NCBI GenBank assembly: GCA_004299235.1
Contig: SCQL01000009.1
Coordinates: forward strand, 1-64,000
Length of the DNA stretch: 64,000 nt
Origin: a bacterium
Lineage (GTDB): Bacteria; Chloroflexota; Dormibacteria; Dormibacterales; Dormibacteraceae
Reading direction: 5' to 3'
Position numbers and translations under genes: made by a program. Shown here piece by piece: positions 8,389 to 43,126 of this stretch. Each line of letters opens with the position of its first letter. The first letter of the stretch is position 1. Below the pieces are notes generated by a model. The model was not told where the DNA came from and did not search any database. It saw only the letters and a list, made by a program, of their open reading frames with translations.

Positions 8389-9861
8389 TCAGTACGCGTG
8401 CTTGCTTGTGAAGATCCGAAATGCTGTGGTCAGAATGATTTTCACATCAAACGCCAGGTTCCACCTCTCAGCGTAGTACAGGTCATATACCAGTCGATCC
8501 TCAATCGAGGTCATACCCCTCAAGTCGTTAACTTGAGCCCATCCAGTTACGCCCGGTCGAACCCGATGCCGTTCTGCGTAAGCCGGCATGCGGTTCCCGA
8601 AGTCAGTGGCGAATACTGGCCGCTCAGGTCGTGGTCCAACTAGACTCATGTCCCCCTTTAGGACGTTCCACAATTGAGGCAGTTCATCGAGACTGAACCG
8701 CCGTAGCAGTATCCCGATCGTCGTTCGTCTGGTGTCTCCGCTGGATGCCCAAACGGGACCAGTCATTCGTTCCGCATCGACTCTCATGCTCCTGAATTTC
8801 AACATCTGAAACGTTCGATCATTTAGCCCCACCCGCTCTTGCCTGATGAGAATCGGACCAGGTGAGGTGATACGGATGAGCAATCCAATGAGAGCCATTA
8901 AAGGAACAACCAGGACGAGTCCCAGGAGTGCCAAGATCATATCAAAAAGGCGCTTAGCCCTCATTTGCAGTGAGGCAGTTGCGAAGCTCCGACGAATCCG
9001 CAGAAGCGGGATGCCAGCTAATTCGTCCGGTTCAACTTGGGAGGCCAGCATCTCCAAAGTTGTTGGAACTACGCGAAACTCCACCTCGCGACGCCGATTT
9101 GAAGCGATCAGTTCTAAGACGCGTTCTTGGCGAACATGCGGCAGTGCGACAAACACAACGTCGATGTGATCCCTTTCGATGATCTTGGTAATCTCGGCAG
9201 AGGCGTCGCTTTGACTCAGGGATGCGTCGAGTTGATCCGCAACCATTGCGATCAACTGGTAACCAAAGTCAGGAAACATCTTGATTCTTTGGACAAGCTG
9301 ATCGGCCGCGTGGCCACGCCCGATCACCAAGCATCGTGCTGTGCCTACGCCGCGGGCACGTTGTCTTCGTTCGATTCGGCGGATTGCGTATCGGCTGAGT
9401 CCGATTAGGATGCCGGCTATCAGTATCCAGTAACCAAAAGTTAGGCGCGAATACACAAGGCGGTCGGGCGGATAGATGATCAGAGCTGCAAAGACAGCCA
9501 AGGCTGACGCCGCAAGAGCGCCGATAATGCCGAAGATTTCATCGGCAAAAAAGCTGCTTCGATGGTTCGAGTAGTTGCCCATAAGAGCGAAGACGAGCAC
9601 GAGGCACGCGGAAAGCGCTGGCGCTGCCTCAACGTAGGGCATGAGAGCGGGTAAGCCCGGGGGCGCTGGCACCGGTATGGCGTCAAACCGAATCCAATAT
9701 GCGAGAGCAAGCGCGCAGGTCGCCATGAAGTAGTCAGTCGCAACTCGCACCGGCACGGCTGGGATCGGTCGCGCATATTGCCGCTGTTTTGCTTTTGTCG
9801 CCTGGTCGCCACCCTGAATTGTTGGCCGATCACCAGCGATTTCGGCAATTGAGTCAGTCAC
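8389..9861 (-). CDS. polyprenyl-phosphate hexose-1-phosphate transferase (initiating sugar transferase, EPS_sugtrans type)
   Basis: About 490 residues. The N-terminal third has four to five membrane helices and is followed by a CoA-binding-like Rossmann segment (RCLVIGRGHAADQLVQRI). The C-terminal catalytic domain starts MRAKRLFDMILALLG and carries QERVGLNDRTFQMLKFRSM, then SLDELPQLWNVLKGDMSLVGPRP, then HRVRPGVTGWAQVNDLRG. These are the signature blocks of WbaP/WcaJ-type enzymes that load the first sugar phosphate on undecaprenyl phosphate. I chose GTG at 9861 because the stop of the 30-codon transaldolase remnant (TGA 9854-9856) overlaps this start, allowing reinitiation; an in-frame TTG at 9891 is the alternative. 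It heads the leftward EPS operon and is a paralogue of the gene at 44374-45873. Confidence 0.93.
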   Translation of the reverse strand: MTDSIAEIAGDRPTIQGGDQATKAKQRQYARPIPAVPVRVATDYFMATCALALAYWIRFDAIPVPAPPGLPALMPYVEAAPALSACLVLVFALMGNYSNHRSSFFADEIFGIIGALAASALAVFAALIIYPPDRLVYSRLTFGYWILIAGILIGLSRYAIRRIERRQRARGVGTARCLVIGRGHAADQLVQRIKMFPDFGYQLIAMVADQLDASLSQSDASAEITKIIERDHIDVVFVALPHVRQERVLELIASNRRREVEFRVVPTTLEMLASQVEPDELAGIPLLRIRRSFATASLQMRAKRLFDMILALLGLVLVVPLMALIGLLIRITSPGPILIRQERVGLNDRTFQMLKFRSMRVDAERMTGPVWASSGDTRRTTIGILLRRFSLDELPQLWNVLKGDMSLVGPRPERPVFATDFGNRMPAYAERHRVRPGVTGWAQVNDLRGMTSIEDRLVYDLYYAERWNLAFDVKIILTTAFRIFTSKHAY

Positions 9862-9946
9862 GGGGAGCAGTTTCGCTCTCGATTGCACCAAAGTCCGACC
9901 AGGCCCGGATTGCCTTGAGGTCAGCGGTGTCGGCGAAGATTTCCAT
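9854..9946 (-). pseudogene. truncated transaldolase/fructose-6-phosphate aldolase-like N-terminus (30 codons)
   Basis: A 30-codon minus-strand frame with ATG at 9946 and a good Shine-Dalgarno (AGGAG complement at 9954-9958, 7 nt spacing). The peptide MEIFADTADLKAIRAWSDFG matches the first strand and helix of the TalC/Fsa transaldolase family, where M-x-x-F-x-DTA-D/N-x-x-x-I includes the conserved active-site Asp of strand 1. The next expected block (VDGVTTNPTL) is missing; the frame diverges and stops at TGA 9854-9856, inside the start region of the sugar transferase. I read it as the stump of a gene interrupted by the EPS island. It may still be translated as a leader that couples to the GTG at 9861. 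Homology over about 20 residues is suggestive, not proof. Confidence 0.5.
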
Positions 9947-11879: not shown

Positions 11880-12536
11880 GTGCTTTTTGGTGCGCGGCGG
11901 GAATTGATCAGGGTCGACCTTCACGTTCACAGCTCGGCTTCTTTCGACTGCGGGGTCGAACCGGAGCAGGTGGCGGCGGCATGCCGGCGGCTCGGCCTTG
12001 CCCCCGTTTTCCTCACCGACCACGACTCCATCGAGGGCGCCCTTCGCTTGCGAGCCTGCGAACGGGTCGTTGTCGGGGAGGAGGTGCTGACCAGCGGCGG
12101 TGAGCTGATCGGCCTTTTCTTACGGGAGCGGATTCCGGCGGGCCTCTCTCCGAAAGAGACGGCGGCGCGGATCAAGCACCAGGGGGGCCTTGTCTACCTG
12201 GAGCACCCATACGACCCCACCCGGCGCCACCTCAGCGAGGAAGCGATCGAGGATCTCGCGGACCTCATCGACATCGTCGAAGTGTTCAACGGGCGTTCTG
12301 ATGGGAAGGCCAACCGCCGCGCCGAGGAGCTGTGCGGCATCCTGGGCGCGGCGCCGGGAGCCGGGTCGGATGCCCATTCCACCGCCGACCTCGGTTCGGT
12401 GTATGTCGAGATGCAGGACTTCGAGGGAGCTTCCGACTTCCTGGCCAAGCTGCGCGACGCCAAGATCGTCGTCGGTCGCAGCAAGCTGTTGCTTACCGCC
12501 CAGGCAAAACTAGGGCCTAAGATTCGGCGGCGATGA
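11880..12536 (+). CDS. PHP-domain metal-dependent phosphoesterase
   Basis: 218 residues. Metal-binding motifs in order are DLHVHS (about 13-18), TDHDS (about 45-49), EHPYD (about 104-108) and GSDAHS (about 161-166), the TrpH/YciV-like PHP set. It is shorter than YciV (about 290). Substrate is unknown: YciV relatives are nucleases or nucleotidases, while PHP proteins of the CpsB type remove phosphate from EPS tyrosine kinases. It is divergent from the Wzz/BY-kinase gene with a 67 bp spacer, so a cognate phosphatase role is tempting, but the sequence looks more like TrpH than CpsB. GTG at 11880 is taken as start; a TTG eight codons later would begin immediately before RVDLHVHS and is equally likely. 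Confidence 0.85.
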   Translation: MLFGARRELIRVDLHVHSSASFDCGVEPEQVAAACRRLGLAPVFLTDHDSIEGALRLRACERVVVGEEVLTSGGELIGLFLRERIPAGLSPKETAARIKHQGGLVYLEHPYDPTRRHLSEEAIEDLADLIDIVEVFNGRSDGKANRRAEELCGILGAAPGAGSDAHSTADLGSVYVEMQDFEGASDFLAKLRDAKIVVGRSKLLLTAQAKLGPKIRRR

Positions 12537-13633
12537 ACTCGCCTTTGTCGACGCGGTGGCTGGAGCTGGTCGCGATTCCGCTCGTTGCGCTCGTCATCGG
12601 CATCGGCGTGGCCGTCGCCTCGAGCCCCAGCTCGCTGGTTCGGGGTCTGCGCGCCACTGGTACGCCGGTCCTGCCGTCACCCACCCCGACGCCGGTAAGT
12701 GCGTCGCCGGCGCCGTCGGTCACCGCGCCTGGGGTTCTCGGCAAGGCCCCGATGCTGATCGCAGCTGGAACGCAGTCTCTGGCGGGCGTGACCCCCGGCC
12801 GGGCGGCGGCCTCGGCGGACGGCGGGAAGACGTGGAGCACTCTGGTGCCGCCGGCCGGGGCCTCGGGCATCGCGCTCGATCCCGGCAATCCGCAGCACGG
12901 GATCACCGGCGGATCCGCAATCCAGTTCACCGTCGACGACGGCGCCACCTGGAAGGCTGTGGTGGCGCCTCCGCCTGCCGGCGGCCCCTTCCAGGTGCTC
13001 GAGGTGAGCCCATTCGACGGCCGCGTCTGGTACTTCCTCCACCGGGGAAAGCTGCTCAGGACGCGCGACGCCTCCGCGACCTGGCGCGACATCCCGGGCT
13101 TGCCGCTGCTATCCAACCCGGTGCTGGCCGCGGGGCCGGTGTTCGGGGAATTCTTCCTGGCCTCGGGCGACCGGGTGTTCGATTTGATCGACAACGGGCA
13201 GCAGGTCACCGAGCGGCCGTCCCTGCCGAATGGGGTCGGCGTCACGGCTCTGGCCGCGATCGGCGGTGGACCGGCCAGCCTGGTCGCACGTGACGGTGAC
13301 GGCGCGTTGTATGTGCTCGAAGGCACGCAGTGGGTGGCGGTGAGCGGTGCACCCGGCGGCCCGATCGCGGCCGGCGGGAACGGCGCGATCCTCGCCGGCG
13401 ACGGCACCGGCAAGCTCGGATCACCCGGATCGATCAGCTTCAGCGTGGACGACGGCGCCACCTGGCATCCCGCCGCCGGACTCCCGTACGACCAGAGCGT
13501 CGAAGCTCTGGCCGGCCAGCCCGATTCGACCACCTTCTTCGCGTATTGCTACGGGGGGGACGTGTATTCGTCGACCGATGGTGGCCGCGATTGGACGCTG
13601 CTGGCGAGGGCGCTGCGCTCCAGCGCGGGTTAA
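12533..13633 (+). CDS. membrane-anchored Asp-box (BNR) beta-propeller protein
   Basis: 366 residues. A single N-terminal helix (about 10-30) is followed by a Pro/Thr/Ser linker (PSPTPTPVS) and then five Asp-box repeats: SADGGKTW, TVDDGATW, TRDASATW, SVDDGATW and STDGGRDW. Spacing is irregular, as in sialidase-like and YCF48-like propellers. No catalytic signature is visible. It is probably exposed outside the cytoplasmic membrane, binding a ligand or partner. Its ATG overlaps the PHP stop by 4 bp (ATGA), so the two are co-translated, which links this propeller functionally to the PHP enzyme and perhaps to the EPS machinery. I know no specific function. Confidence 0.75.
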   Translation: MNSPLSTRWLELVAIPLVALVIGIGVAVASSPSSLVRGLRATGTPVLPSPTPTPVSASPAPSVTAPGVLGKAPMLIAAGTQSLAGVTPGRAAASADGGKTWSTLVPPAGASGIALDPGNPQHGITGGSAIQFTVDDGATWKAVVAPPPAGGPFQVLEVSPFDGRVWYFLHRGKLLRTRDASATWRDIPGLPLLSNPVLAAGPVFGEFFLASGDRVFDLIDNGQQVTERPSLPNGVGVTALAAIGGGPASLVARDGDGALYVLEGTQWVAVSGAPGGPIAAGGNGAILAGDGTGKLGSPGSISFSVDDGATWHPAAGLPYDQSVEALAGQPDSTTFFAYCYGGDVYSSTDGGRDWTLLARALRSSAG

Positions 13634-13817: not shown

Positions 13818-14777
13818 ATGGTCAGGAAAGCTGTGAGACGGGGTTTACCCGGACTGTTCGTGACTGGCGTGCTGGCCGCTGCAGTCCTCCTTCCGGTGGG
13901 GTCGGCATTGGCTGGGCCAAGTCTGTGCTATGCCTACCCGCCGTGCCAGATCTACACGACCGAGGCCTTTGGCGGAGTGCACCCCGATGGGGGCAGCCCG
14001 GCGATCACCAACGAACCAACCTTCGGCTCGCCGTTGGCTCGGGCTTCGCACCCGATGCCGGGCACGCCTGGGGTCGGATTGGTCCTGGACGCGTACGGCG
14101 GTCTCCACCCCTACGGGACACCCGCGGTCACCCCTTCTCAGTATCCCTACTACCCCGGCGTTGACATCGCCCGCGACTTCGTCTTCGCCTCCGCCACCGG
14201 CGGCTACGAGCTCGACGGCTACGGCGGCATCCACCCGTTCTCGGTAAACGGGGGCGCGCTGCCGGCGGCTCCGGTCAATTACCCCTACTTCACCGGAAAC
14301 GACGTCGCCCGGAAGATCGTTCTTCTCGCTGATGGCAAGGACGGCTATGTGTTGGACATCCACGGCGGCATCCACCCCTGGGCAGCCTCCGGCGGTACAT
14401 TGCCGGTCGCACCCGCTCAGTACGGCTACTGGGCCGGCGCCAACGTGGCGCGAGACGTCTGGGTCGATCCGGCCGCCACGATCGCTGGGGCCAGCGGCTA
14501 CGTGCTGGACCTTTACGGCGGCTTTCACGCATTCTGGGGCGGCACCGCGGCTGCTCCCGCGGCGATCGTGAACTATCCCTACTGGGCCGGGAGCGATCTC
14601 GCGCGCGCGTTCTGGTTCTCTCCCGGTTCCATGCCGAGCGCAAGCTTCGGCTACGTGCTTGACGCCTACGGCGGCATCCACCCGTTTGCCGGTTCGGGGC
14701 AGGCCTTGCCGCCTCCAATCTTCCCGTTCGGCTACTGGAACGGCCGGGACCTCGCCCGCGCGCTCTTCGGCGGATAG
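13818..14777 (+). CDS. secreted six-repeat LDxYGGxHPF protein (stand-alone domain)
   Basis: 319 residues from ATG 13818, which has a GGAGG site at 13808-13812; an in-frame start at 13743 would add 25 residues ahead of the signal peptide. A signal peptide ends near residue 33 (LPVGSALAGPS). The rest is one domain of six repeats with cores EAFGGVHP, LDAYGGLHPY, LDGYGGIHPF, LDIHGGIHPW, LDLYGGFHAF and LDAYGGIHPF. Between cores sits a second conserved piece such as YPYYPGVDIARDFVF or YGYWAGANVARDVWV. The first repeat lacks this piece and the protein ends with one (FGYWNGRDLARALFGG), which suggests ring closure as in a six-bladed propeller. No enzyme motif. I know no named family for it. It is the minimal form of a domain found on three other proteins here, and is closest to the C-terminus of the 40781-43126 product (shared CQIYT and NEPTF pieces). 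Confidence 0.8.
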   Translation: MVRKAVRRGLPGLFVTGVLAAAVLLPVGSALAGPSLCYAYPPCQIYTTEAFGGVHPDGGSPAITNEPTFGSPLARASHPMPGTPGVGLVLDAYGGLHPYGTPAVTPSQYPYYPGVDIARDFVFASATGGYELDGYGGIHPFSVNGGALPAAPVNYPYFTGNDVARKIVLLADGKDGYVLDIHGGIHPWAASGGTLPVAPAQYGYWAGANVARDVWVDPAATIAGASGYVLDLYGGFHAFWGGTAAAPAAIVNYPYWAGSDLARAFWFSPGSMPSASFGYVLDAYGGIHPFAGSGQALPPPIFPFGYWNGRDLARALFGG

Positions 14778-14789
14778 CCTCACCTCTGT

Positions 14790-14817
14790 CCCGGGGCGAG
14801 AGCGATCTCGCCCCGGG
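14790..14817 (+). terminator. strong hairpin, probable terminator after the repeat gene
   Basis: A perfect 12 bp stem (CCCGGGGCGAGA / TCTCGCCCCGGG) with a GCGA loop, 13 nt after the stop codon. There is no T-run after it, so it may work as a hairpin-only terminator or an RNA-stabilising structure. The 16-nt core GCGAGAGCGATCTCGC recurs exactly at 16409-16424. Confidence 0.6.
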
Positions 14818-14845
14818 ATTGCACCCACAAGAGCCGACCGTCACC

Positions 14846-16575: not shown

Positions 16576-19014
16576 ATGAGGTATTTCTTACTGGCACTCC
16601 TGACCGCAACCGTGTTCTCTGGGAATTTCCCCGGGACCGCTGCCGCGTCCTCCACGCCCTCACCGAGCCCCGACGCGGTCCGCCCGCTGATCACCCAGCA
16701 GGCGGCCAAGCAGGTGGCGACGACCAATGGAGGCTCCCTTCAGCCCTTCACCGCAACCGCGCCTCAAGCTGCCGTCGGAGGAGCGGGGGGGCCGATGCGC
16801 GAGATCTTCGGATTTGCGCTGGCGAGCAGCCTCAGCGATCCTACGATCGGCTATCCGACCTGGGATTTCTCCCTCCTGAGCACGGTTGCATTCTTTGGCC
16901 TGCACGTCCAGGACGACGGCACCTTCGCCGCGGACTCGGGTGACGCTGTCTGGAACTCCAGCCAGCTGTCCGGCCTTGTGAGCACCGCGCACTCGCACGG
17001 AACCAAGGTGGTTCTGACCATCATCTTGCAGGACTTCAGCGCGGGCACACCGCACATGTGCGCCGGCCTGGCGCACTACGCGACAACAGTCACCAACACA
17101 GTCAGCGAGGTGAGGGCCAAGGGTGTCGACGGCGTCAACGTCGACTACGAGGGGCTCAATGGGAGTTGCGGCACCACCGACTCATCGTGGGCTCGCCACA
17201 CCCTCACGGCTTTTGTGGCGAGTCTTCGGGCGGCGCTGCCGGGCGGGTCGTACCTGTCAGTCGACACCTATGCCAGCTCGGCCGCTGACCCGATTGGCTT
17301 TTTCGACGTCCAGGGTTTGGCCCCCAGCGTGGACTCATTTTTCGTGATGGCCTACGACCTCGAGTATTCGAACTACGGCCGTCCGCCAACCAGCTGTAGC
17401 AGCTTCTGCCTCGGACCAACGGCCCCGCTGGGTGGTTACTACTACAACGACACCACCGTCGCCGGCCAGTACATCGCCGCCGTGCCGGCATCGAAGGTGA
17501 TCCTCGGCGTGCCGTATTACGGCCGCAAGGCGTGCGTCGCGGCCGCCACGCCTAACGCATATCCGACCAGCGCGGTCGTGGCAGATACCTATCTCGATGC
17601 GGCGGGCGAAGCCGGCTCCAACCTGGTCCAACCTGGCACCTTCGTGACACATCGCGACGCCAACGACACGGGAGGCCAGGAGCGCTGGGACACGTGGTTC
17701 AACACGTCGATGAACTGCACAAGGGAGCTGTACTGGGACGACGCGGTGTCGCTGTCGCACAAATACGCGTTGATCAATTCCGACAACCTCCGCGGCGTCG
17801 GGATCTGGAATTTGAACTACGGAGGCGGTGCTCCGGAACTGTGGTCGGCGCTGAGCACCTACTTCGCCTGCCCGGTTTCGATCAACCTGCCGGCCACGGA
17901 AAGCACCACCCGGTTCAGCGTGCCGCTCTCGGCGGGCAGCTGCTCGGTCGCCTACTTCGACATCCAGCAGTACGACGGCACGATCAACGAGGGCTGGTTT
18001 GGGATGCCTTCGGTGGGGGCTTCGGGCGGCTCGTCCGGGAACGCGTCGGCCGAGGGCTTCCAGGGCCATACGTATACGTTCATGGCTCGCGCTCACTCGA
18101 GCGGAGGATTGGTCACCTCCTGGGCCCAGGCCAGCACGCAGGTCTCGCCGACGGCCACCAAGGCGCACGCCTGGAGTGGTCTGTACACGCTCGACGGATA
18201 TGGCGGAATCCATCTCGCCGACAGCCCGCCGCTGGACAATTCTCCCTACTGGCCGTGGCCGGCGGCACGAGCCGTCAAGGCGGCGCCGGGGCCCAACGCA
18301 CCCCAGGCTGGATTTGTCCTGGACGCCTTTGGCGGACTTCACCCGTACGGCGGACCGGCGCTCCAGGTCGGCCAGGTGCCGTATTACCCCAATCAGGACA
18401 TTGCGCGCGACTTCGTATTTCTACCCAACGCCAGCGGAGGGTACGAGCTCGACGGCTACGGGGGCATCCATCCTTTCTCGATCGGCTCCAACCCGATGCC
18501 GCCCGTGCCTGCAGCATTCCCCTACTTCGCAGGGAGGGACATCGCGAAGAAGATCACCTTGCTGGCGGATGGCAGCGGCGGTTATGTACTGGACGCCTAC
18601 GGCGGGTTGCATCCCTGGGCGGTGGCGGGCAGGCCGCTGCCGATAAGCCCCGCCGCTTATGGCTACTGGCCGAACCGGGACATCGCGCGCGACGTCTGGC
18701 TCGCGCCCGACTCCACCGCGACCTCTGTTCATGGCTACGTGCTGGACGCCTATGGCGGGTTTCATCCATTCTGGAGCGGAGCGGCGGCGGCCCCGGCGGC
18801 GATGGCAGCCTATGGGTACTGGCCGGGCCAGGACATCGCGCGAGGGATGTGGTTCGTGCCCAGCTCAACGGCGAATACCGCGACGGGCTACACGCTGGAT
18901 GCATACGGTGGGATTCATCCCTTCGCGGCGGGCAGCCAGCCGCTGCCGGCCGTGATCGGCCAGTACGGATACTGGCCGGGAAGAGACATCGCACGCGCGC
19001 TGTGGGGGGCTTAG
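16576..19014 (+). CDS. secreted GH18-like glycosidase with C-terminal six-repeat LDxYGGxHPF domain
   Basis: 812 residues. A signal peptide (about 1-24) is followed by a Ser/Pro linker. The GH18 TIM barrel spans about 75-435: motif DGVNVDYE (185-192) keeps the Asp (190) and the proton-donor Glu (192) of D-x-x-D-x-D-x-E and has Asn in the second position, as in YaaH-like spore GH18 enzymes. Further GH18 marks are FFVMAYD, KVILGVPYYGR and GVGIWNLNYGGG. Residues about 435-535 look like an Fn3-like spacer, and 535-812 are six repeats starting LDGYGGIHLADS. GH18 members cleave beta-1,4 GlcNAc linkages in chitin, peptidoglycan or amino-sugar EPS; the substrate here is not known. It probably acts outside the cell, with the repeat domain holding it to a glycan or surface. 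A paralogue follows 45 bp downstream. Confidence 0.85.
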   Translation: MRYFLLALLTATVFSGNFPGTAAASSTPSPSPDAVRPLITQQAAKQVATTNGGSLQPFTATAPQAAVGGAGGPMREIFGFALASSLSDPTIGYPTWDFSLLSTVAFFGLHVQDDGTFAADSGDAVWNSSQLSGLVSTAHSHGTKVVLTIILQDFSAGTPHMCAGLAHYATTVTNTVSEVRAKGVDGVNVDYEGLNGSCGTTDSSWARHTLTAFVASLRAALPGGSYLSVDTYASSAADPIGFFDVQGLAPSVDSFFVMAYDLEYSNYGRPPTSCSSFCLGPTAPLGGYYYNDTTVAGQYIAAVPASKVILGVPYYGRKACVAAATPNAYPTSAVVADTYLDAAGEAGSNLVQPGTFVTHRDANDTGGQERWDTWFNTSMNCTRELYWDDAVSLSHKYALINSDNLRGVGIWNLNYGGGAPELWSALSTYFACPVSINLPATESTTRFSVPLSAGSCSVAYFDIQQYDGTINEGWFGMPSVGASGGSSGNASAEGFQGHTYTFMARAHSSGGLVTSWAQASTQVSPTATKAHAWSGLYTLDGYGGIHLADSPPLDNSPYWPWPAARAVKAAPGPNAPQAGFVLDAFGGLHPYGGPALQVGQVPYYPNQDIARDFVFLPNASGGYELDGYGGIHPFSIGSNPMPPVPAAFPYFAGRDIAKKITLLADGSGGYVLDAYGGLHPWAVAGRPLPISPAAYGYWPNRDIARDVWLAPDSTATSVHGYVLDAYGGFHPFWSGAAAAPAAMAAYGYWPGQDIARGMWFVPSSTANTATGYTLDAYGGIHPFAAGSQPLPAVIGQYGYWPGRDIARALWGA

Positions 19015-19059: not shown

Positions 19060-21525
19060 GTGCCCGGCCGTTCCCTGGTGTTCCGGTTGTGCCACGTGTC
19101 GCTTGCGGTGCTGGTATTGGGCAGTGCGCCGCTGGCGCTGTCACCGCAACCGGTCCATGCGGCTCCCGTTCACACTAACCGTCTCAATCAGCTGGGCCCG
19201 CGCATCATGGACGAAGCCGCGAACCTGGCGGCGCTGCCGGCATCGCAAGTGCCCTTCACGCCGGCACATAGGGTGGTGGTGCGTCCGCTGACTGGGGTCA
19301 GACCGGGTCCGCAACGGGAAGTCTTCGGGTTCGTGAACGCAAGCAACATCGGCGATCCGAACGTCGGCTACACGCAGTGGAATTTCAGGCTGCTCACCAC
19401 CGTGGCTTTTTTTGGACTGCACGTGAACAGCGGCGACGGCAACCTCGTGACAACCGACACTGCTTGGGCTGCCTTTCACTCGGCGGCGATGGGCAACCTC
19501 GTGAACACCGCCCATGCGAACGGCGTGCGCGTGATCGTCTCGTTGAACCTGCACGACTTCAGCACCAGCCCGACCAACCAGGTCTGCCAGGGGCTCATCG
19601 CCGCCAACGCGCAGAACACGATCAATCAGGCGATTGCGCAAATGAACGCTGCCGGCATCGACGGCATCAACGTCAACTACGAGGCGACGAACACAACGTG
19701 CGCCGATGGACAGGCCAGTCGAGATGAGCTGACCGCCTTCGTCAAGAATTTCCGGGCGGCGATGCCAGCCGGCAGTTACCTGGCCATCGACACGTTCTCC
19801 GGATCCGCAGAGGACAACCTCGAGTTCTTCAACATCACCGGCCTCGCACCTTATGTCGATTCCTTTTTCGTCATGGCATACGACATGGACTACGCCAACG
19901 CCTCGGAAGCCCCGCTCTACTGCAGCTCGTACTGCTTCAACCCGATTTCCCCGCTGAATACCTACCGGTTCAACGTCTCGAAGTCGATCGCTCAGTACAC
20001 GGCGCTGGTTCCGGCCAGCAAGGTCATCCTCGGGCAGCCGTACTACGGGCGTCGAGGCTGCGTCCCTTCACTCAGCTCGGCCCATCAGTATCCGATTCCC
20101 AACACCAATTTCGTCACGACGACATATTTGTTCGCATCGACCATTCCGAGCCAGACCGGGGTCTCCAGCTTCTCGGCCCATCGCGACCCCGGAGACGGAG
20201 TGAGCAAGTGGGACACGTGGTACGACTCCGACTGGAGCTGCAACCGGGAGCAGTACTACGACGACACCTTCTCACTGGCTGCCAAGTACGACCTCATCAA
20301 CCGCAGCAACCTCGGTGGTGTGGGGCTCTTCACGCTCGACTATGGGGGCGGGGCGGCGGAGCTGTGGTCGCTGCTGGCGACGTACTTCTCCTGCCCGGTT
20401 TCGTTCAGCCTGCCGGCCACCGAGAGCACCACCCAGTTCAGCGTCCAGCTCTCGGCCGGCAGCTGCTCGGTCGCCTACTACGACGTCGACCAGTTCGACA
20501 TCACGCTCGGCGAAGGCCTGTTTGGTCTGGCACCGGTAGGGTCCTCGGGAAACGCCATCGTGGAGGGCTACCAGGGCCACAGCTATCAGATTCTTGCCCG
20601 TTCCCACTCGACCGGGGGCGTGGTGAGTGCGTGGGTGGCGGCCAGCACCCAGGTGTCCCCGACAGCCACCAAGTCCCACGCCTGGAGTGGTCTGTACACG
20701 CTCGACGGATATGGCGGGATCCACCTCGCCGACAGCCCGCCGCTGGACAACGCTCCCTACTGGCCGTGGCCGGCGGCGCGGGCGGTCAAGGCGGCCCCGG
20801 GGCCCAACGCGCCTCAGGGTGGGCTCATCCTGGACGCTTTTGGCGGCCTGCATCCATACGGTGGCCCGGCGTTGCAGGTTGGAGTGGAGCCGTATTACCC
20901 CAACCAGGACGTCGCCCGCGACTTCGTTTTCCTGCCCGACGCCAGCGGCGGCTATGAGCTCGACGGCTACGGGGGCATCCATCCCTTCTCGATCGGGTCG
21001 AATCCGATGCCGCCCCTGCCGGCTCAGTTCCCTTACTTCCCCGGTCAGGATGTGGCCAAGAAGATCACCTTGCTGGCGGACGCGTCCGGCGGTTATGTGC
21101 TCGACAGCTACGGCGGCATCCACCCCTGGGCTGTGGCGGGCAAGCCCCTGCCGGTCGCGATCTCGCAGCACGGTTACTGGGCGGGGGCAAACGTGGCGCG
21201 CGACATCTGGCTGGATCCGGCGGCGACCTCAGCTTCGGCCAGCGGCTACGTGCTCGACCTGTACGGCGGCCTTCACCCGTTCTGGGGCGGCACGGCTTCA
21301 GCGCCGGCCCCGGTTGCCGCCTACGGATACTGGGCGGGCCAGGACATCGCGCGGGCTGTCTGGCTGCTGCCCGGCTCTACGCCCAACACGGCGGCCGGCT
21401 ACACCCTGGACGCGTATGGCGGCATTCATCCGTTCGCGGCGGGCGGCCAGGCGCTGCCGGCCGGCATCAGCCAGTACGGCTACTGGCCGGGCAGGGACGT
21501 CGCCAGGGCCTTGTGGGGCGCGTAG
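19060..21525 (+). CDS. secreted GH18-like protein with six-repeat domain, catalytic Asp replaced
   Basis: 821 residues, GTG start, signal peptide to about residue 36. It is a paralogue of the preceding gene with the same order: GH18-like barrel (about 95-450), Fn3-like spacer, six LDxYGGxHPF repeats (about 545-821). The catalytic motif is DGINVNYE (201-208): Glu208 is kept, but the Asp two residues before it, which assists the acetamido group in GH18 catalysis, is Asn. FFVMAYD, KVILGQPYYGR and GVGLFTLDYGGG are present. Activity may be weak or absent, leaving a glycan-binding role. DNA identity with the upstream copy is much higher over the repeat domain than over the barrel. The 45 bp gap suggests co-transcription. 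Confidence 0.82.
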   Translation: MPGRSLVFRLCHVSLAVLVLGSAPLALSPQPVHAAPVHTNRLNQLGPRIMDEAANLAALPASQVPFTPAHRVVVRPLTGVRPGPQREVFGFVNASNIGDPNVGYTQWNFRLLTTVAFFGLHVNSGDGNLVTTDTAWAAFHSAAMGNLVNTAHANGVRVIVSLNLHDFSTSPTNQVCQGLIAANAQNTINQAIAQMNAAGIDGINVNYEATNTTCADGQASRDELTAFVKNFRAAMPAGSYLAIDTFSGSAEDNLEFFNITGLAPYVDSFFVMAYDMDYANASEAPLYCSSYCFNPISPLNTYRFNVSKSIAQYTALVPASKVILGQPYYGRRGCVPSLSSAHQYPIPNTNFVTTTYLFASTIPSQTGVSSFSAHRDPGDGVSKWDTWYDSDWSCNREQYYDDTFSLAAKYDLINRSNLGGVGLFTLDYGGGAAELWSLLATYFSCPVSFSLPATESTTQFSVQLSAGSCSVAYYDVDQFDITLGEGLFGLAPVGSSGNAIVEGYQGHSYQILARSHSTGGVVSAWVAASTQVSPTATKSHAWSGLYTLDGYGGIHLADSPPLDNAPYWPWPAARAVKAAPGPNAPQGGLILDAFGGLHPYGGPALQVGVEPYYPNQDVARDFVFLPDASGGYELDGYGGIHPFSIGSNPMPPLPAQFPYFPGQDVAKKITLLADASGGYVLDSYGGIHPWAVAGKPLPVAISQHGYWAGANVARDIWLDPAATSASASGYVLDLYGGLHPFWGGTASAPAPVAAYGYWAGQDIARAVWLLPGSTPNTAAGYTLDAYGGIHPFAAGGQALPAGISQYGYWPGRDVARALWGA

Positions 21526-22820: not shown

Positions 22821-24035
22821 TCAGCGGCTGCGTGGAACCTTTGTGGAGGCGGCCTCGAGCACAGAGCTGTATGCCGCCTCGATCCTGCCGATCACCTGGC
22901 GCCAGCTGAACCGGCCCTCCACCTCGCCGAGTCCCCTTGCACCCAGCGACGCGGCCAGCATTGGGCTGGACAGCAGGCGCTCGAGGGCGCCCGCCAGCTG
23001 CTCAACCGACCCCGGGTCGACCAATAGACCCGTCTGGCCGTCGGTGATGACCTCGCCCACCGTGGGGATGCGGGCTCCGATCACCGGCTTGGCCTTCGAC
23101 CACGCCTCGAGGTAGACGCGGCCGAACGCCTCGTGGCGGGAGGGCAGGCACACCACGCTCGACGCCTCGATCGCGTCCCACTTCGTCTGCTCATCGACGG
23201 TGCCCAAGACGTGCACCCATGGCGCCTGGCGCCGCGAGAAGAAGCGGGTCGAAAACGGAGTCGCGGGGCCGACGAACGCGAGCTCGGCCTTCACGCCTCT
23301 CGAACGGATCGCGGCGACAGCCTGGAACAGGTCGGCCACGCCCTTGTATTCGAACTGCTGGCCGAGGAAGAGGACCACCTGCCCGGTCGAGCCGCGGAGG
23401 CGAGCGCGGAAGCGAGCGGCGTCGGCGGGGAGCGGGGGATCGGCGGCGCCGCCGATCACGTGGATGCGGTCGCCGCTCACGCCGAGCCGCTGAAGCTCCG
23501 CCGACTCGAACTCCGTGAGCGCGAGGACCGCATCGGCGGCGCGATACACCTCGAGCCAGCCGCCGTACCGGTAGCCGCGCCACTTCGGATGGTGGTGCGC
23601 GGTGAGCACGAAGGGCATGGCACGCTTTCGCGCGACCATCAACGAGGTCTGCGCGAGGAACTCGCGGCCGATCCTGTGGTTGTGGATCAGCGCATGTTCT
23701 GGCTGAACCACTTGCTCCAGGTAAGGAACCATCTGCGCCGCGATCCGCCGAGCCGCCACAGCGGGGTACGCGTAGTAAGACAGCACCCAGGGCAGCATCC
23801 GGGCCCTGGCACTCGAGCTCCAGCCGAGCGTCGTGACCCCGGGCGACGGCTGGGCCAGGTCCCCCGTGAGCCTGAGCGTGGTCCCGAGCAGCCAGTCGGT
23901 GCGGTTGCGCAGCCAAAGGGTGAGGACGTCAGCCTCGAAGGTGGTCAGGCGGGCCGCCAGCTCGGCCACGTGCGCCTGCACGCCGCCGGTGGATGGGGGA
24001 TAGGCGGTCGTGGTCAGCAGGACGCGGGGCTTCAA
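22821..24035 (-). CDS. GT4-family glycosyltransferase
   Basis: 404 residues from TTG 24035, which overlaps the stop of the WecG-type gene (TTGA). The longer frame to 24158 lies inside that gene and reads as low-complexity, so it is rejected. The N-terminus KPRVLLTTTAYPPSTGGVQ has the GT4 glycine loop. The donor domain has VVLFLGQQFEYKGVADL and SRHEAFGRVYLEAWSKAKPVI with the complete E-x7-E. Cytosolic, sugar unknown. Co-translated with the GT26 gene, so it probably acts on the same lipid-linked intermediate. Confidence 0.88.
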   Translation of the reverse strand: MKPRVLLTTTAYPPSTGGVQAHVAELAARLTTFEADVLTLWLRNRTDWLLGTTLRLTGDLAQPSPGVTTLGWSSSARARMLPWVLSYYAYPAVAARRIAAQMVPYLEQVVQPEHALIHNHRIGREFLAQTSLMVARKRAMPFVLTAHHHPKWRGYRYGGWLEVYRAADAVLALTEFESAELQRLGVSGDRIHVIGGAADPPLPADAARFRARLRGSTGQVVLFLGQQFEYKGVADLFQAVAAIRSRGVKAELAFVGPATPFSTRFFSRRQAPWVHVLGTVDEQTKWDAIEASSVVCLPSRHEAFGRVYLEAWSKAKPVIGARIPTVGEVITDGQTGLLVDPGSVEQLAGALERLLSSPMLAASLGARGLGEVEGRFSWRQVIGRIEAAYSSVLEAASTKVPRSR

Positions 24036-24802
24036 GGGTTGAGCTCGTATCTCCGGATGCCCAACCGCTGCAGCGCCAGGGACCAGACGAACCAGGGGTT
24101 GTTGATGAGATAGCGGCGCCACAGCCGCCGGGGCTCGGTCAGCAGGCGGAACAGCCACTCGAGGCCAGAGCGTTGCATCCAGCGGGGAGCCTGGCGGATC
24201 GTTCCGCTGTGAAAGTCGAAGGCGGCGCCGACGCCGATCAGGACTGGCGCCTCCAGGAGCGGACGCATCTTCGCCATCCAGCGCTCCTGCTTCGGCGAGC
24301 TGATGCCGACCCAGACCACGTCGGTTTTAGTGGCGTTGATGGCCGCAGCCGTTTCCGCGGAGGCGAGCTGGTCCAGCGGCGCGAAGGGCGGCTCCAGGGT
24401 GCCGGCGACCTTCAACCCCGGAAAGCGTGCCCGCATGCCGGCCGCCAGCCGCTCGCTGACGCCCGGCCCCCCTCCATAGAGGAAGTGACGGTGGCCGGAC
24501 GTTGTCGATCGCCGAAATTCGGCGAGCATGAGGTCGGGGCCGTAGACGCGGGTGACTCGCGGATCGCGTTCCCTGGCGAGCCAGACCAATGGCATGCCGT
24601 CCGGAGTCACCATGCCGGCGGAGTTGAAGATTCGGCGCAGCTCATCCGAGCGCTGGCACTCCATCACGCCGTGGACGGAACAGACGCAGACATAGGTGCC
24701 GTCGCCGGCTCGGACGGCCCGGTCGATCTCGTCGAGCGCGCGGTCCATGTTGACCAGGCTCACACCGACGCCGAGGACGTTGATTCGCTCCGGCCTGCTC
24801 AC
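24032..24802 (-). CDS. WecG/TagA/CpsF-family glycosyltransferase (GT26)
   Basis: 256 residues from GTG 24802, which overlaps the preceding stop by 4 bp (GTGA). Family marks in order are INVLGVGVSLVNMDRAL, VCVCSVHGVMECQR, AGMVTPDGMPLVW, RVYGPDLM, HFLYGGGPGV, VWVGISSPKQERWM and VLIGVGAAFDFHSGT. GT26 enzymes add ManNAc or ManNAcA to polyprenyl-PP-GlcNAc or transfer related sugars early in repeat-unit assembly. The VGxxxPKQE block is the diagnostic one. Peripheral membrane or cytosolic. A 20-residue upstream extension in frame lies within the neighbouring GT4 gene and is unlikely to be real. Confidence 0.92.
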   Translation of the reverse strand: MSRPERINVLGVGVSLVNMDRALDEIDRAVRAGDGTYVCVCSVHGVMECQRSDELRRIFNSAGMVTPDGMPLVWLARERDPRVTRVYGPDLMLAEFRRSTTSGHRHFLYGGGPGVSERLAAGMRARFPGLKVAGTLEPPFAPLDQLASAETAAAINATKTDVVWVGISSPKQERWMAKMRPLLEAPVLIGVGAAFDFHSGTIRQAPRWMQRSGLEWLFRLLTEPRRLWRRYLINNPWFVWSLALQRLGIRRYELNP

Positions 24803-25872
24803 GAAGGCACGGCAGCCGCCGCAAGCACTTCCTTGTAGACCTCGGTGGTCCGCTGTGCACATTTATCCCAGGTGTACAGCCGGGCTTGCCGCGCGCCCGA
24901 GCTTCGTAACCGGCCGCGCACCTCCGGGCGCGACAACACCGCCTCAAGTGCCTCACCAAGGGCCCTCGGGTCGGTTGGATCGATCAACAACGCGGCGTCG
25001 CCGAGAACTTCGGGCAGCGACCCGCGATCCGAAGCGACGACCGGCGTACCCACGGCCATGGCTTCCAGTGGCGGAAAGCCGAAGCCCTCGTACAGAGATG
25101 GGTACACCACCGCCGAAGCGCTCGCGAAAAGCGAGGGCATCTCGGAGTGTGGCGCCTGTCCGAGCCAGCGAACGCGCGATCGGAGTCCGAGGGCATGCAC
25201 GAGCTTGGAGTAGGAGGGGAAGTCCTCCTCGCGCGCACCGGAGATATCCAGGGTGGTCCGTGCGAGCAAGCTGTCCTGGTTCGCCGCGGCCATGCACCGC
25301 AACACGGAATCGAGGTTCTTGCGACCGATCGGCGCGCCTGGAAAGAGCAGTGTCCCGCCCCCCTCCGTCGGTGGCCGACTCGGGCTGAAGTTGAGGAAGC
25401 GAGAGTCCACGCCGTAAGGTACCGCCACCACACGATCGGGTTTCAGGCCAAATGCCTCGATCACCTCACGGCGGCCGAACTCGCTGCCGGTGATCACGCG
25501 CGCTGCGGCCCGAAGCCGGCGTGGCATGAAGGCGTCGACGTACACACGCCATTCGAGTGGGTGATCGCCGGGGAAGTGCTTCGAAGCTGCGTCGTGGACG
25601 GTGACGACCACCGGGACTTTGATTGCCCAAGGCGTAACGAAGCTGGGGCAATGCAGGATGTCAGGCGGTTTTTCAGCGACCGCCTTGCCCCCGCCTCGGA
25701 CCAGCCAGCGAATGGTGCCGACGAAATTCGATCTCCGGGGGCCGGCGATCACCCATGGAACGGTTTCGTCTCGCTCGCGCAGCGAGGCCAGCAGCGATCG
25801 GGCGTAGGCGCCCGACCCCCCCTGGTTTCGGTTCGCGAAGGTCATGTCGAAGGCCACGGATGTAAGCGGCAT
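24799..25872 (-). CDS. GT4-family glycosyltransferase
   Basis: 357 residues from ATG 25872, 13 bp after the Wzy-like gene; the frame continues to 26010, but that part overlaps the neighbour and looks non-coding. The N-terminus has [21 protein letters not shown], a GT4 acceptor loop. The middle has [15 protein letters not shown]. The donor domain has [19 protein letters not shown] and [20 protein letters not shown] with both Glu residues. Similar to mannosyl/rhamnosyl transferases of the IDAR group. It overlaps the GT26 gene by 4 bp. Confidence 0.88.
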
Positions 25873-25885
25873 TGCCCAGCGCAGC

Positions 25886-27382
25886 TTAAGCCACGGGTCT
25901 GATCGGCCACGCCCTTGAGGCGGTCCTCGATCGCCGCGCCGCGAGCGTGGCGCTCGCACCAGCAGCCCACGAGAAAAGAAAGGTGACTGAGAGGTCGCCC
26001 CAAACATCACTCGTGACGGTGACCGGAAGCAGGGCGAGGCCGCCGACCAGGGCGGTGATAGGCAGTGCCACGGCGAGGGATTGCTCCGCGGCCGAACGAT
26101 ATGCGCGATAGCCGTTCCAGAGCGCCAGTACGTAGAAGGCGACGTACAACGCCCCCCCGACGACGCCCAGATCTCCGAACATCCCCAGCAGGGCGCTTTC
26201 GCCGGTGCCGACCAACTGACCGTACCGGGCGGTTGAAGCGCCCGTCCCGAGACCCAATGGATTGTGCAGGTCGACCTTGATATCGGCCACCAGAAAGTCG
26301 GAGTGCTCCTGGGCGGAGCTGTCGTTGCCGGAAATCGCCCCCTGCCAGTGGCTCCGCGCCACCTCGCTCAGATTCCGGTCCACCGCCGGCCCAAGCGAAG
26401 CGTATGGATACAGCATCAAAATCGAGGCCGCGATCAGGGCTGGGACCAGCGCTACGATCCAGGCCCGGCGGAGCAACAGTGACAGGACCATGGCCTCGCC
26501 GATCAAGGCAAACAGGGCCAGGCGCGTCAACGCGAACATGACGCCGATCACCACCAGCGTGAGGGCAGCCATCGCGAACCACTTCACCTTCGTTCCTGCG
26601 CGTTGGCGGTCGACAAGCAGCACACCCATCGGGAAGAGCAGCAGCCCCGTATACGCGACGCCCAGCGGGCTGATGTAGGTCGACACCATGCGTCGCAGCA
26701 GAGTGCCGTCGGGCAGGGTGACGAAGAAGTTCGGTGGCAGCCCTCGAGGTCCGTTGTAGTTGAATCCGAGAAAGTGCGTGTAGAGGTTGACGCCCCAATC
26801 GAGCCAGGTCCGAGTCGGTACCAAGAAGAGCTCGAGGAGGCCGAACACCGTCACGACAGACCCCGCGCCGATGCAGAGCCACAACACAGTTCGGAGCTCT
26901 GATTCACCGGCTGGGTCCAGCCGTCGAGCCACGAAGTAGATCAGCGGAATCAACGCGGCGACGCGAAATCCCACCAGGCGTTGGGCGAGACCCGTCCCCG
27001 AGTGGAGGATCGACTCCGGCAGCAGGAAATAGACGGTGGCGATGACGGCGAAGCCGAGGGCCACCCAGTCGGTGAGGACGAGCTTACCGGCCTGACCATT
27101 TCTCCGCGCTTGCCAGAGCCGCATCAGAGCGATGGCTGTGAGCAGGGCGATGAGAGCTTCCTTCCAGCCCTGGAAGGCGCGAACGAGAAGGTACGGGGTG
27201 CCCAGGCGTAGCAGGACCATCAGCACGAAGCTGTGGAAGGCCATACCGGCAACCAGCAGCCCGAGACCGATGAAGGGGCGCCGCCACGCCCACCACATCC
27301 CGAAGACCAGCAGGCCGAGCAGAACGACAGCTAGGACGCTACCCACCAGGCTCATCTGGGCGACGCTCATTTGCTGGTCCAC
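25886..27382 (-). CDS. Wzy/O-antigen-ligase-type membrane protein
   Basis: 498 residues, about 12 helices. A long outer loop around residues 340-390 contains HSDFLVADIKVDLHNPLGLG followed by GTGESALLGMFGDLGVVG, the layout of Wzy_C proteins, where a His or Glu in this loop binds the polyprenyl-glycan. This is one of three Wzy/ligase-type proteins in the window. It heads the leftward set 27382-21553 and is divergent from the flippase at 27536. Polymerase or ligase function is not separable from sequence. Confidence 0.8.
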   Translation of the reverse strand: MDQQMSVAQMSLVGSVLAVVLLGLLVFGMWWAWRRPFIGLGLLVAGMAFHSFVLMVLLRLGTPYLLVRAFQGWKEALIALLTAIALMRLWQARRNGQAGKLVLTDWVALGFAVIATVYFLLPESILHSGTGLAQRLVGFRVAALIPLIYFVARRLDPAGESELRTVLWLCIGAGSVVTVFGLLELFLVPTRTWLDWGVNLYTHFLGFNYNGPRGLPPNFFVTLPDGTLLRRMVSTYISPLGVAYTGLLLFPMGVLLVDRQRAGTKVKWFAMAALTLVVIGVMFALTRLALFALIGEAMVLSLLLRRAWIVALVPALIAASILMLYPYASLGPAVDRNLSEVARSHWQGAISGNDSSAQEHSDFLVADIKVDLHNPLGLGTGASTARYGQLVGTGESALLGMFGDLGVVGGALYVAFYVLALWNGYRAYRSAAEQSLAVALPITALVGGLALLPVTVTSDVWGDLSVTFLFSWAAGASATLAARRSRTASRAWPIRPVA

Positions 27383-40780: not shown

Positions 40781-43126
40781 ATGAAGCACGCACGTGCTCC
40801 GTTGCTGATCGCCCTTGCCGTCACCCTGGTCCCCATGCCGACCGCCGCCGCGCCGCGCGCGCCGGCCGCGGTCAGGTCGATCGTGACCCCAGGCGCGGCC
40901 GCCTCGTTTGGCGCCGGCTGGACGACCTATCACCATGACAACGCTCGCACCGGGTATGACGCGACCGCGCCCTCGATCACCTCGCCGAGCCCTTCGGCGC
41001 AATGGAACACAGGGCTGGACGGCAACGTTTACGCCGAACCGCTGATCTGGAACGGCGTGGTCATCGCCGTGACTGAAAACGACAGCATTTACGCCCTGGA
41101 CGAGGGCTCCGGGGCAGTCGTGTGGCACAAGGTGGTCGGCGCCAGCGTGGCGACACACTACTGCAGCTCGGAGATCAACCCGGTCGGGATCACCAGCACC
41201 CCGGTCATCGACCCGTCAACCAGCATTGTCTATGCCGTTGGGTTGGTCGGCCCCATCTCGTCGCCGAAGTACCAGATGTTTGCATTGAACCTGTCGGACG
41301 GAAGTACCGTGGCCGGTTTCCCGGTGGACATCACGCCGACGGCGCAGGGAGGCACGGTCACCCTCGACCCCGCCGTGTCGGAGCAGCGTGGAGCCCTGGG
41401 CCTGGCCAATGGCCACGTGTACGTGCCGTTCGGCGGCTGGCTCGGCGATTGCGGCGACTACCACCCGTGGGTTGTGGGTGTGCCGGCCACCGGCGGCGCT
41501 GTCAGCAACGTGTACGAGCCTCAAACCTCGAGCCAGCGTGAGGCCGGGATCTGGGCGGCCCAGGGGATGTCAATAGACGGCTCGGGCAATGTCTACGTGG
41601 CCACGGGCAACGCCGGCTCCGGCAGCTCGTCTCTGCCTTGCAATGCGAGTCTGTACGACCACGGCAACGGAGTCTTCAAGCTCTCGAGCACGCTGGTTGA
41701 GCTGAGTTACTTCGCCCCCTCAGACTGGTGCACACTGAGCCAGGCCGATCAAGACGTCGGATCGATCGCGCCTTCGCTGCTCAACAACAGCATCGTCTTT
41801 CAAACCGGCAAATCGGCCCAGGTCTGGCTGTTGAACGCCGGCGCGCTCGGCGGCTTCGGCGGTCAGGCGAACCCGAACACAGCGATCAGCACATGCTCCT
41901 CTGGCGACGCCGTCTTCGGCGGGGCGGCGTACGTCGCTCCCGACGTTTACATCGCATGCAACAGCTCAGGCAGCCTGCAGGCGCTATCGGTGAACACGGG
42001 CTGTCCACCGCTGGGCTTCACCACTCACTGGACCGCGGGTGGATTCACGCCCGGGCCGCCGATCGTGGAAGGCGACCTCATCTGGACCCTGTCGATTGGC
42101 GGTTCACCTTCGACTCTCTACGGCTTCGATGCGGCTGGGAGTCTCGTGGTGACGGCGGGCCTGCCGCAGGGCGTGCATCACTTCGCCACGCCGGCCGCCG
42201 ACGGGGGCTGGATTTTCGTCCCTCAGTCCACGAGCATCACCGGGCTCGACTTCGCGACCTATCCTCCTCCGACCTGCGGAGCGAACCCCTGCCAGATCTA
42301 CACGGTCGACGCCTACGGCGGCGTCCACCCCGATGACTTCAGCCCAGCGATCAGCAACGAGCCGACCTTCAGTTCGCCGCTCGCCCGAGCCGCGCACATG
42401 GCGCCCGGCACGCCGGCGGTGGGGCTCGTCCTCGACGCCTACGGCGGCCTTCACCCGTACGGCACACCCGCGATCGTCCCTTCTCAATTTCCCTACTACG
42501 CCGGTGTCGACATCGCGCGTGACTTCGTCTTCGTTCACGGAGGCACCGGAGGTTACGAGCTCGACGGCTATGGCGGAATTCATCCGTTCTCGGTGAATGG
42601 GAACCCCCTGCCGCCGGTCCCGGTCAATTACCCCTACTTCCCCGGCAATGACGTGGCCAAGAAGATCACGCTCTTGGCGGATCAGTCAGGCGGCTACGTG
42701 CTGGACGTTTACGGTGGCATTCATCCCTGGGCGGTGAGCGGGCATGCACTGCCGGCCGCCATCGCCCAGTACGGCTATTGGGCCGGTGCCAACGTGGCTC
42801 GTGACATCTGGCTGGATCCGGCCGCGACGGCGGCTTCAATCAGCGGCTACGTGCTGGACCTTCATGGCGGCTTCCACCCGTTCTGGGGCGGCTCCGCTCC
42901 AGCTCCCGCGGCGGTTGTGAACCACCCGTACTGGACGGGACGCGACCTCGCCCGCGCGCTGTGGTTCTTGCCCAGCTCGAACCCGTCGGCAGCCACCGGT
43001 TACGAGCTTGACGCATACGGCGGCATCCATCCCTTTGCCGCCTCGGGACAGTCGCTGCCGAACCCGATCAGCCAGTACGCCTACTGGAGCGGCCAGGACC
43101 TGGCGCAAGCCCTGTTCGGAGGGTAG
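40781..43126 (+). CDS. secreted quinoprotein-like beta-propeller with C-terminal six-repeat LDxYGGxHPF domain
   Basis: 781 residues, AAGGAG at 40770-40775. A signal peptide ends near residue 24. Residues about 45-505 look like a PQQ-type propeller without enzyme residues I can name: WTTYHHDNARTGYD (the usual W-x-x-x-H/R-x-x-x-xTG start), then DSIYALDEGSGAVVWHK, STPVIDPSTSIVYAVG and similar blades. Residues about 510-781 are six repeats with cores VDAYGGVHPD, LDAYGGLHPY, LDGYGGIHPF, LDVYGGIHPW, LDLHGGFHPF and LDAYGGIHPF, ending DLAQALFGG. The repeat part is closest to the stand-alone protein at 13818. Probably extracellular and binding. It sits between EPS sugar genes and overlaps the convergent ligase gene by 59 bp. 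Confidence 0.78.
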   Translation: MKHARAPLLIALAVTLVPMPTAAAPRAPAAVRSIVTPGAAASFGAGWTTYHHDNARTGYDATAPSITSPSPSAQWNTGLDGNVYAEPLIWNGVVIAVTENDSIYALDEGSGAVVWHKVVGASVATHYCSSEINPVGITSTPVIDPSTSIVYAVGLVGPISSPKYQMFALNLSDGSTVAGFPVDITPTAQGGTVTLDPAVSEQRGALGLANGHVYVPFGGWLGDCGDYHPWVVGVPATGGAVSNVYEPQTSSQREAGIWAAQGMSIDGSGNVYVATGNAGSGSSSLPCNASLYDHGNGVFKLSSTLVELSYFAPSDWCTLSQADQDVGSIAPSLLNNSIVFQTGKSAQVWLLNAGALGGFGGQANPNTAISTCSSGDAVFGGAAYVAPDVYIACNSSGSLQALSVNTGCPPLGFTTHWTAGGFTPGPPIVEGDLIWTLSIGGSPSTLYGFDAAGSLVVTAGLPQGVHHFATPAADGGWIFVPQSTSITGLDFATYPPPTCGANPCQIYTVDAYGGVHPDDFSPAISNEPTFSSPLARAAHMAPGTPAVGLVLDAYGGLHPYGTPAIVPSQFPYYAGVDIARDFVFVHGGTGGYELDGYGGIHPFSVNGNPLPPVPVNYPYFPGNDVAKKITLLADQSGGYVLDVYGGIHPWAVSGHALPAAIAQYGYWAGANVARDIWLDPAATAASISGYVLDLHGGFHPFWGGSAPAPAAVVNHPYWTGRDLARALWFLPSSNPSAATGYELDAYGGIHPFAASGQSLPNPISQYAYWSGQDLAQALFGG

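Follow-up and report, generated by a model that had tools for sequence, protein, structure and literature searches.

A secreted repeat domain predicted to form a six-bladed propeller of an unnamed family recurs on diverse enzymes of Dormibacteria and Acidimicrobiia

The stretch of Dormibacteria DNA analyzed here (64,000 nt, hereafter the window) carries four copies of a six-unit repeat domain that is predicted to fold into a closed six-bladed beta-propeller and that, judged by sequence, appears to be a new and as yet unnamed family of a known, common fold. We rate at about even the chances that this closed propeller acts as a secreted binding or retention module, holding unrelated enzymes at a common extracellular ligand. 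The domain is probably a general-purpose attachment module.

Results

Six repeat units in the protein 13818-14777

The gene 13818-14777 (+) encodes a 319-aa protein consisting of a signal-peptide-like start and six repeats, with no other part. The features of this protein, each unit comprising a core and a second piece, are as follows.

13818..13916 (+): signal peptide-like N-terminus (MVRKAVRRGLPGLFVTGVLAAAVLLPVGSALAG), by direct sequence reading; GGAGG 5′ of the ATG
13953..14078 (+): unit 1, core TEAFGGVHPD and degenerate second piece TFGSPLARA; from sequence, strand in the model
14079..14204 (+): unit 2, LDAYGGLHPY ... YYPGVDIARDFVF; from sequence
14205..14345 (+): unit 3, LDGYGGIHPF ... 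YFTGNDVARKIVL; from sequence
14346..14498 (+): unit 4, LDIHGGIHPW ... YWAGANVARDVWV; from sequence
14499..14651 (+): unit 5, LDLYGGFHAFW ... YWAGSDLARAFWF; from sequence
14652..14774 (+): unit 6, LDAYGGIHPF ... YWNGRDLARALFGG, the second piece being the final strand of the ring; from sequence and model residues 280-285

The plus frame was taken to be coding because GGAGG precedes its ATG, GC at the third codon position reaches 80%, and third codon positions are enriched for substitutions among the four window copies of the domain. A minus-strand ORF (13845-14828) was dismissed as a high-GC shadow frame, given that both codon-position GC and the substitution pattern favor the plus frame.

The six units measured 42, 42, 47, 51, 51, and 41 aa, and five D-x-[YHF]-G-G cores were counted, compared with at most two in 2000 shuffles. 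Thus, the six-fold repeat proposed in the initial annotation is real, and the chain does, as stated there, have a core at its start and a second piece at its end. The same annotation had held that the first unit lacks a second piece; this proved wrong, as TFGSPLARA is present though degenerate and corresponds to a strand in the model (residues 41-47). This piece is intact in relatives, e.g., AYWPGWSIARA, and its W position was aromatic in 39/39 aligned six-unit sequences. The protein therefore has six cores and six second pieces.

Five residues (core D, core H, W, D, and R) are kept across all blades of the propeller family, the core D being present in about 94% of alignment cells. They would most likely form an internal hydrogen-bond scaffold, and folding alone can suffice to explain their conservation in all blades. 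Blade-specific marks had also been claimed, namely HPW in blade 4 and HPFW or HAFW in blade 5; these are common to the four window copies and do not extend to the wider family, where blade 4 has W at that site in 4/39 aligned members.

Four copies of the domain in one gene cluster

A whole-genome search found the domain at exactly four sites, all inside the window, with the other three copies 56-75% identical to that of 13818-14777, which is the sole stand-alone copy among them.

18124..19011 (+): six-unit domain, C-terminus of GH18 protein 16576-19014
20635..21522 (+): six-unit domain, C-terminus of GH18 protein 19060-21525
42260..43123 (+): six-unit domain, C-terminus of PQQ-like propeller protein 40781-43126

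Six-unit copies generally lie at the extreme C-terminus of the host protein. This location at chain ends, together with the structural look of the repeated motif, would suit a repeat with no specific ligand, serving as a protease-resistant spacer or cap. We consider such a role very improbable, as a stand-alone secreted copy would then be purposeless, and the four copies have been held at 56-75% identity with substitutions biased to third positions.

In the product of 40781-43126 (+), a PQQ-like propeller is joined to the unnamed propeller, so that two propeller families stand in tandem. Directly upstream of 13818-14777, the gene 12533-13633 (+) encodes a secreted-looking protein with BNR/sortilin-type repeats, which from its sequence is probably also a propeller, belonging to a different family. 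The tandem GH18 proteins 16576-19014 and 19060-21525 carry DGVNVDYE in one and DGINVNYE in the other, versus the usual catalytic motif DxxDxDxE; the Asn at the altered site is reminiscent of GH85. Since the DGVNVDYE/DGINVNYE pair is also kept at a locus of another genus (L055), the change looks selected rather than a decay.

Naming and spread of the family

No Pfam match was obtained for the window protein or for the 51 aligned members, and NCBIfam, PHROGs, and PDB sequence searches returned no named family, which bears out the earlier statement that none was known. The Pfam hit DUF2507 (E 0.011) was dismissed as covering 12 aligned residues and falling far under the cut-off, and PDB sequence matches to a methionyl-tRNA ligase (E 0.37) and a plant virus coat protein (E 0.16) were regarded as chance. 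A literature text search for the repeat motif found no paper. In the available text of a survey of highly repetitive propellers, 17 sequences were left "UNKNOWN", and these could include this repeat (PMC9218822).

A family scan using one genome per species yielded 164 encoding stretches, and 75 loci were retained. Nearly all of these are labeled Dormibacterota/Chloroflexi or Acidimicrobiia/Actinomycetota, with odd labels, e.g., Myxococcaceae, occurring too. Within the class of the window bacterium, at most 38/85 genomes matched the profile, an upper figure that includes some weak, spurious matches. Those weak matches (E 1e-6 to 1e-3) that were read proved to be C-termini of M23-peptidase-like, YVTN-like, and penicillin-binding-like proteins. 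Of 201 genomes sampled across the phylum, 14 matched; 13 of these belong to the class of the window, and the remaining one matched at E 9e-4. The domain was not found in the plasmid and phage collections, and IMG/VR gave four weak loci only, each on a viral-collection contig (L128-L131, 27-34% identity); four cores were detected in L128. Two contigs labeled Bifidobacterium breve (MAG) bear the domain (L080 and L096), a label that looks like a misassigned metagenome bin.

A closed six-bladed ring is predicted

From an input alignment of 51 natural sequences, AlphaFold2 modeled the six-unit domain with a pLDDT of 94.9 and a pTM of 0.92. By VIA-align, the solved structures that matched best were six-bladed YWTD propellers, superposed along the full chain: LRP6 8dvm (Z 17.4, rmsd 3.7, 239 aligned) and nidogen 1npe (Z 16.4); the designed Pizza6 gave Z 15.8. 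Foldseek alone returned weak E-values (best 2.6e-4) to mixed propellers, so that the resemblance to YWTD propellers lies in shape.

As expected of the beta-propeller fold, the predicted structure has radial blades in a closed ring that superposes on a YWTD propeller at Z 17.4, and the family tolerates circular permutation, with core-first and second-piece-first arrays both found. Finding a single repeat in two circular phases provides an independent argument that the ring is closed. The six-bladed ring of the initial annotation thus stands, on the confident model, the whole-length superposition, and the relatives in opposite phase. Its account of closure was right in substance, in that the C-terminus supplies the final strand, whereas the argument that unit 1 misses its second piece fell away. 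From the pTM and the whole-length superposition of the model, we infer that the chain closes the ring via this C-terminal strand.

Each repeat would form four strands: A, the second piece (DIARxxxL); B, GYVLD; C, GGIHPF; and D, which is short and lies on the outside. Blade 1 of the window proteins would be built from both chain ends, with B, C, and D coming from the N-terminus and the closing strand A from the C-terminus; in the strand list of the model, B of this blade comes first and A (residues 280-285) last. Up to three strands permuted to the N-terminus are described for propellers in the available text of PMC6805158, the same arrangement as in the 13818-14777 model.

YWTD, NHL, and WD40 propellers are usually protein-interaction platforms. 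With protein-binding propellers as the nearest solved folds, the domain might likewise be a platform on which proteins of the secreted EPS machinery or matrix interact or assemble. In about half of the six-unit members, the position following R in units 2-4 shows a D/K/D pattern specific to the blade, which might label a particular channel or face, and protein-protein interaction fits the subtilase and PQQ fusions equally well. Such a variety of unrelated fusions, scattered widely among genomes, is however hard to square with a dedicated partner, and we judge this explanation unlikely.

Ring size and circular phase vary by lineage

Cores and second pieces were counted by a threshold-based census, in which single arrays may be miscounted and taxa were taken from record titles; arrays of Dormibacteria/Chloroflexi mostly had six cores, with the core first and the second piece last (39 arrays, plus 9 with the final piece undetected), and arrays of Acidimicrobiia/Actinomycetota mostly had five cores and occurred in both phases, 16 running from second piece to core and 11 from core to second piece. 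Five complete core/second-piece pairs were unambiguous in L067, L063, and L125. The five-unit domain of L067, which has the reverse phase, was predicted with strands for five blades (pLDDT 91.9, pTM 0.90), and its best VIA match was 3qqz (Z 14.5).

Long arrays of 10-15 units were seen in L111 (7350-9251; ten units), L103, L101, and L076, apparently representing two or three tandem rings per protein, as read from their sequences. The array of L114 (3966-5297) had three clear units, short of one ring, and is possibly completed by oligomerization or fragmentary.

Fusion partners and linkage to exopolysaccharide genes

Among 93 parts, the fused domains were GH18 (14), S8 (7), CHAP (7), C39 (6), M23 (3), amidase (3), and CAP (3), along with GH43, GH25, GH5, and PQQ-like domains. 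These partners make glycan or surface binding plausible. Because the partners are diverse and unrelated, a shared ligand is favored over a substrate-specific module. As GH18 is the most frequent partner, and GH43, GH5, and GH25 are seen too, the domain could instead be the carbohydrate-binding module (CBM) of the attached enzyme, directed at an external substrate such as chitin or fungal wall; the five-bladed tachylectin-2 does bind GlcNAc. We regard this as not very likely, since subtilase, CAP, PQQ-like, and metallopeptidase partners share no external substrate and a stand-alone copy exists. The linkage of GH18 fusions to exopolysaccharide (EPS) clusters, described below, also suggests an endogenous role.

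The cluster in the window is of the EPS type, with two PF02397 priming transferases, a Wzz/kinase, a Wzy-like ligase, and a MurJ-family flippase; it also encodes WecG/TagA and many glycosyltransferases.

8389..9891 (-): EPS priming sugar transferase (PF02397), flanking the domain proteins on one side
22821..27382 (-): EPS genes (glycosyltransferases, WecG/TagA family), whose homologues adjoin GH18-propeller genes in two other genera
44374-45873 (-): second EPS priming sugar transferase (PF02397), flanking the domain proteins

In these two other genera (G010 and G002), GH18-propeller genes adjoin homologues of window EPS genes, those of 24032-24862, 24799-26010, 25886-27382, and 44374-45873 being 48-75% identical; G010 also carries two GH18 genes in tandem that match the window pair at 60-63%. 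Counting the window, three genera thus have GH18-propellers within EPS clusters and flanked by homologous genes. At least two EPS homologues were found in the fetched flanks of 6/13 GH18 loci versus 3/62 others (Fisher p 0.0005, for related loci that are not fully independent), indicating that EPS linkage is a trait of the GH18 fusions and not of the domain. The link with EPS genes suggested for the domain was accordingly upheld for the window locus and its GH18-fused relatives, but not for the family at large (3/62 non-GH18 loci).

Discussion

In the reading we prefer, retention at a common extracellular ligand, the module would retain unrelated secreted enzymes, i.e., chitinase-like GH18 proteins, proteases, and peptidoglycan hydrolases. 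The ligand would most likely be a polysaccharide from the wall or exopolysaccharide of the producer itself, and it may be bound by variable loops or the channel of the propeller. As a counterpoint to a ligand on the producer's own surface, distant copies of the domain lie mostly away from EPS genes. More tentatively, the domain may be a surface-retention propeller that is fused widely in Dormibacteria and Acidimicrobiia, with a role like that of LysM or SLH elsewhere, a ring size that differs by lineage, and two closure phases; this wider formulation we hold to be possible but somewhat doubtful.

The domain is a recurrent accessory part in two mostly uncultured groups, and it tags a large number of secreted enzymes that would be difficult to interpret without it. 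Binding of the domain to envelope polysaccharide, if it occurs, would show by what means hydrolases are kept at the surface of these bacteria. The occurrence of five- and six-bladed rings and of two phases inside one family is notable, and such variation among relatives offers a natural system for studying blade gain and loss; if the surface-retention reading is true, the change in blade number could be traced among homologues.

Comparison with known propellers

Like the YWTD propellers (LDL-receptor class B: LRP6, LDLR, and nidogen), the domain has six blades and superposes on them over its whole length (Z 16-17). It differs from them in that identity is 8-13% and that it is bacterial, secreted, and fused to hydrolases; for the YWTD repeat signature, there was no Pfam match in the 51 members and no PDB sequence match. 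The designed Pizza6 shares with it six similar short blades (Z about 15.8). NHL propellers such as PknD have a different repeat motif, with no NHL sequence match obtained, and the WD40 profile had no Pfam match in the 51 members. The Asp-box (BNR) motif SxDxGxTW is absent from the 13818-14777 protein, which has no BNR match, whereas the neighbor 12533-13633 does match BNR.

The five-unit relatives have the same blade number as tachylectin-2 and a similar blade length. The DxDxDG motif of tachylectin-2/VCBS-like propellers is absent from the 13818-14777 protein, with no Pfam or PDB sequence match, and tachylectin was not among the structural matches listed, which excludes nothing. VCBS-like propellers are typically carbohydrate-binding, according to the available text of PMC9218822.

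Highly repetitive bacterial propellers are described, in the available portions of two surveys, as arising by blade amplification, with several blade numbers and velcro closure by circularly permuted strands (PMC9218822, PMC6805158). The present repeat is not described in those portions, and the family resembles the propellers surveyed there in its amplified blades, varied blade number, and closure by a permuted strand.
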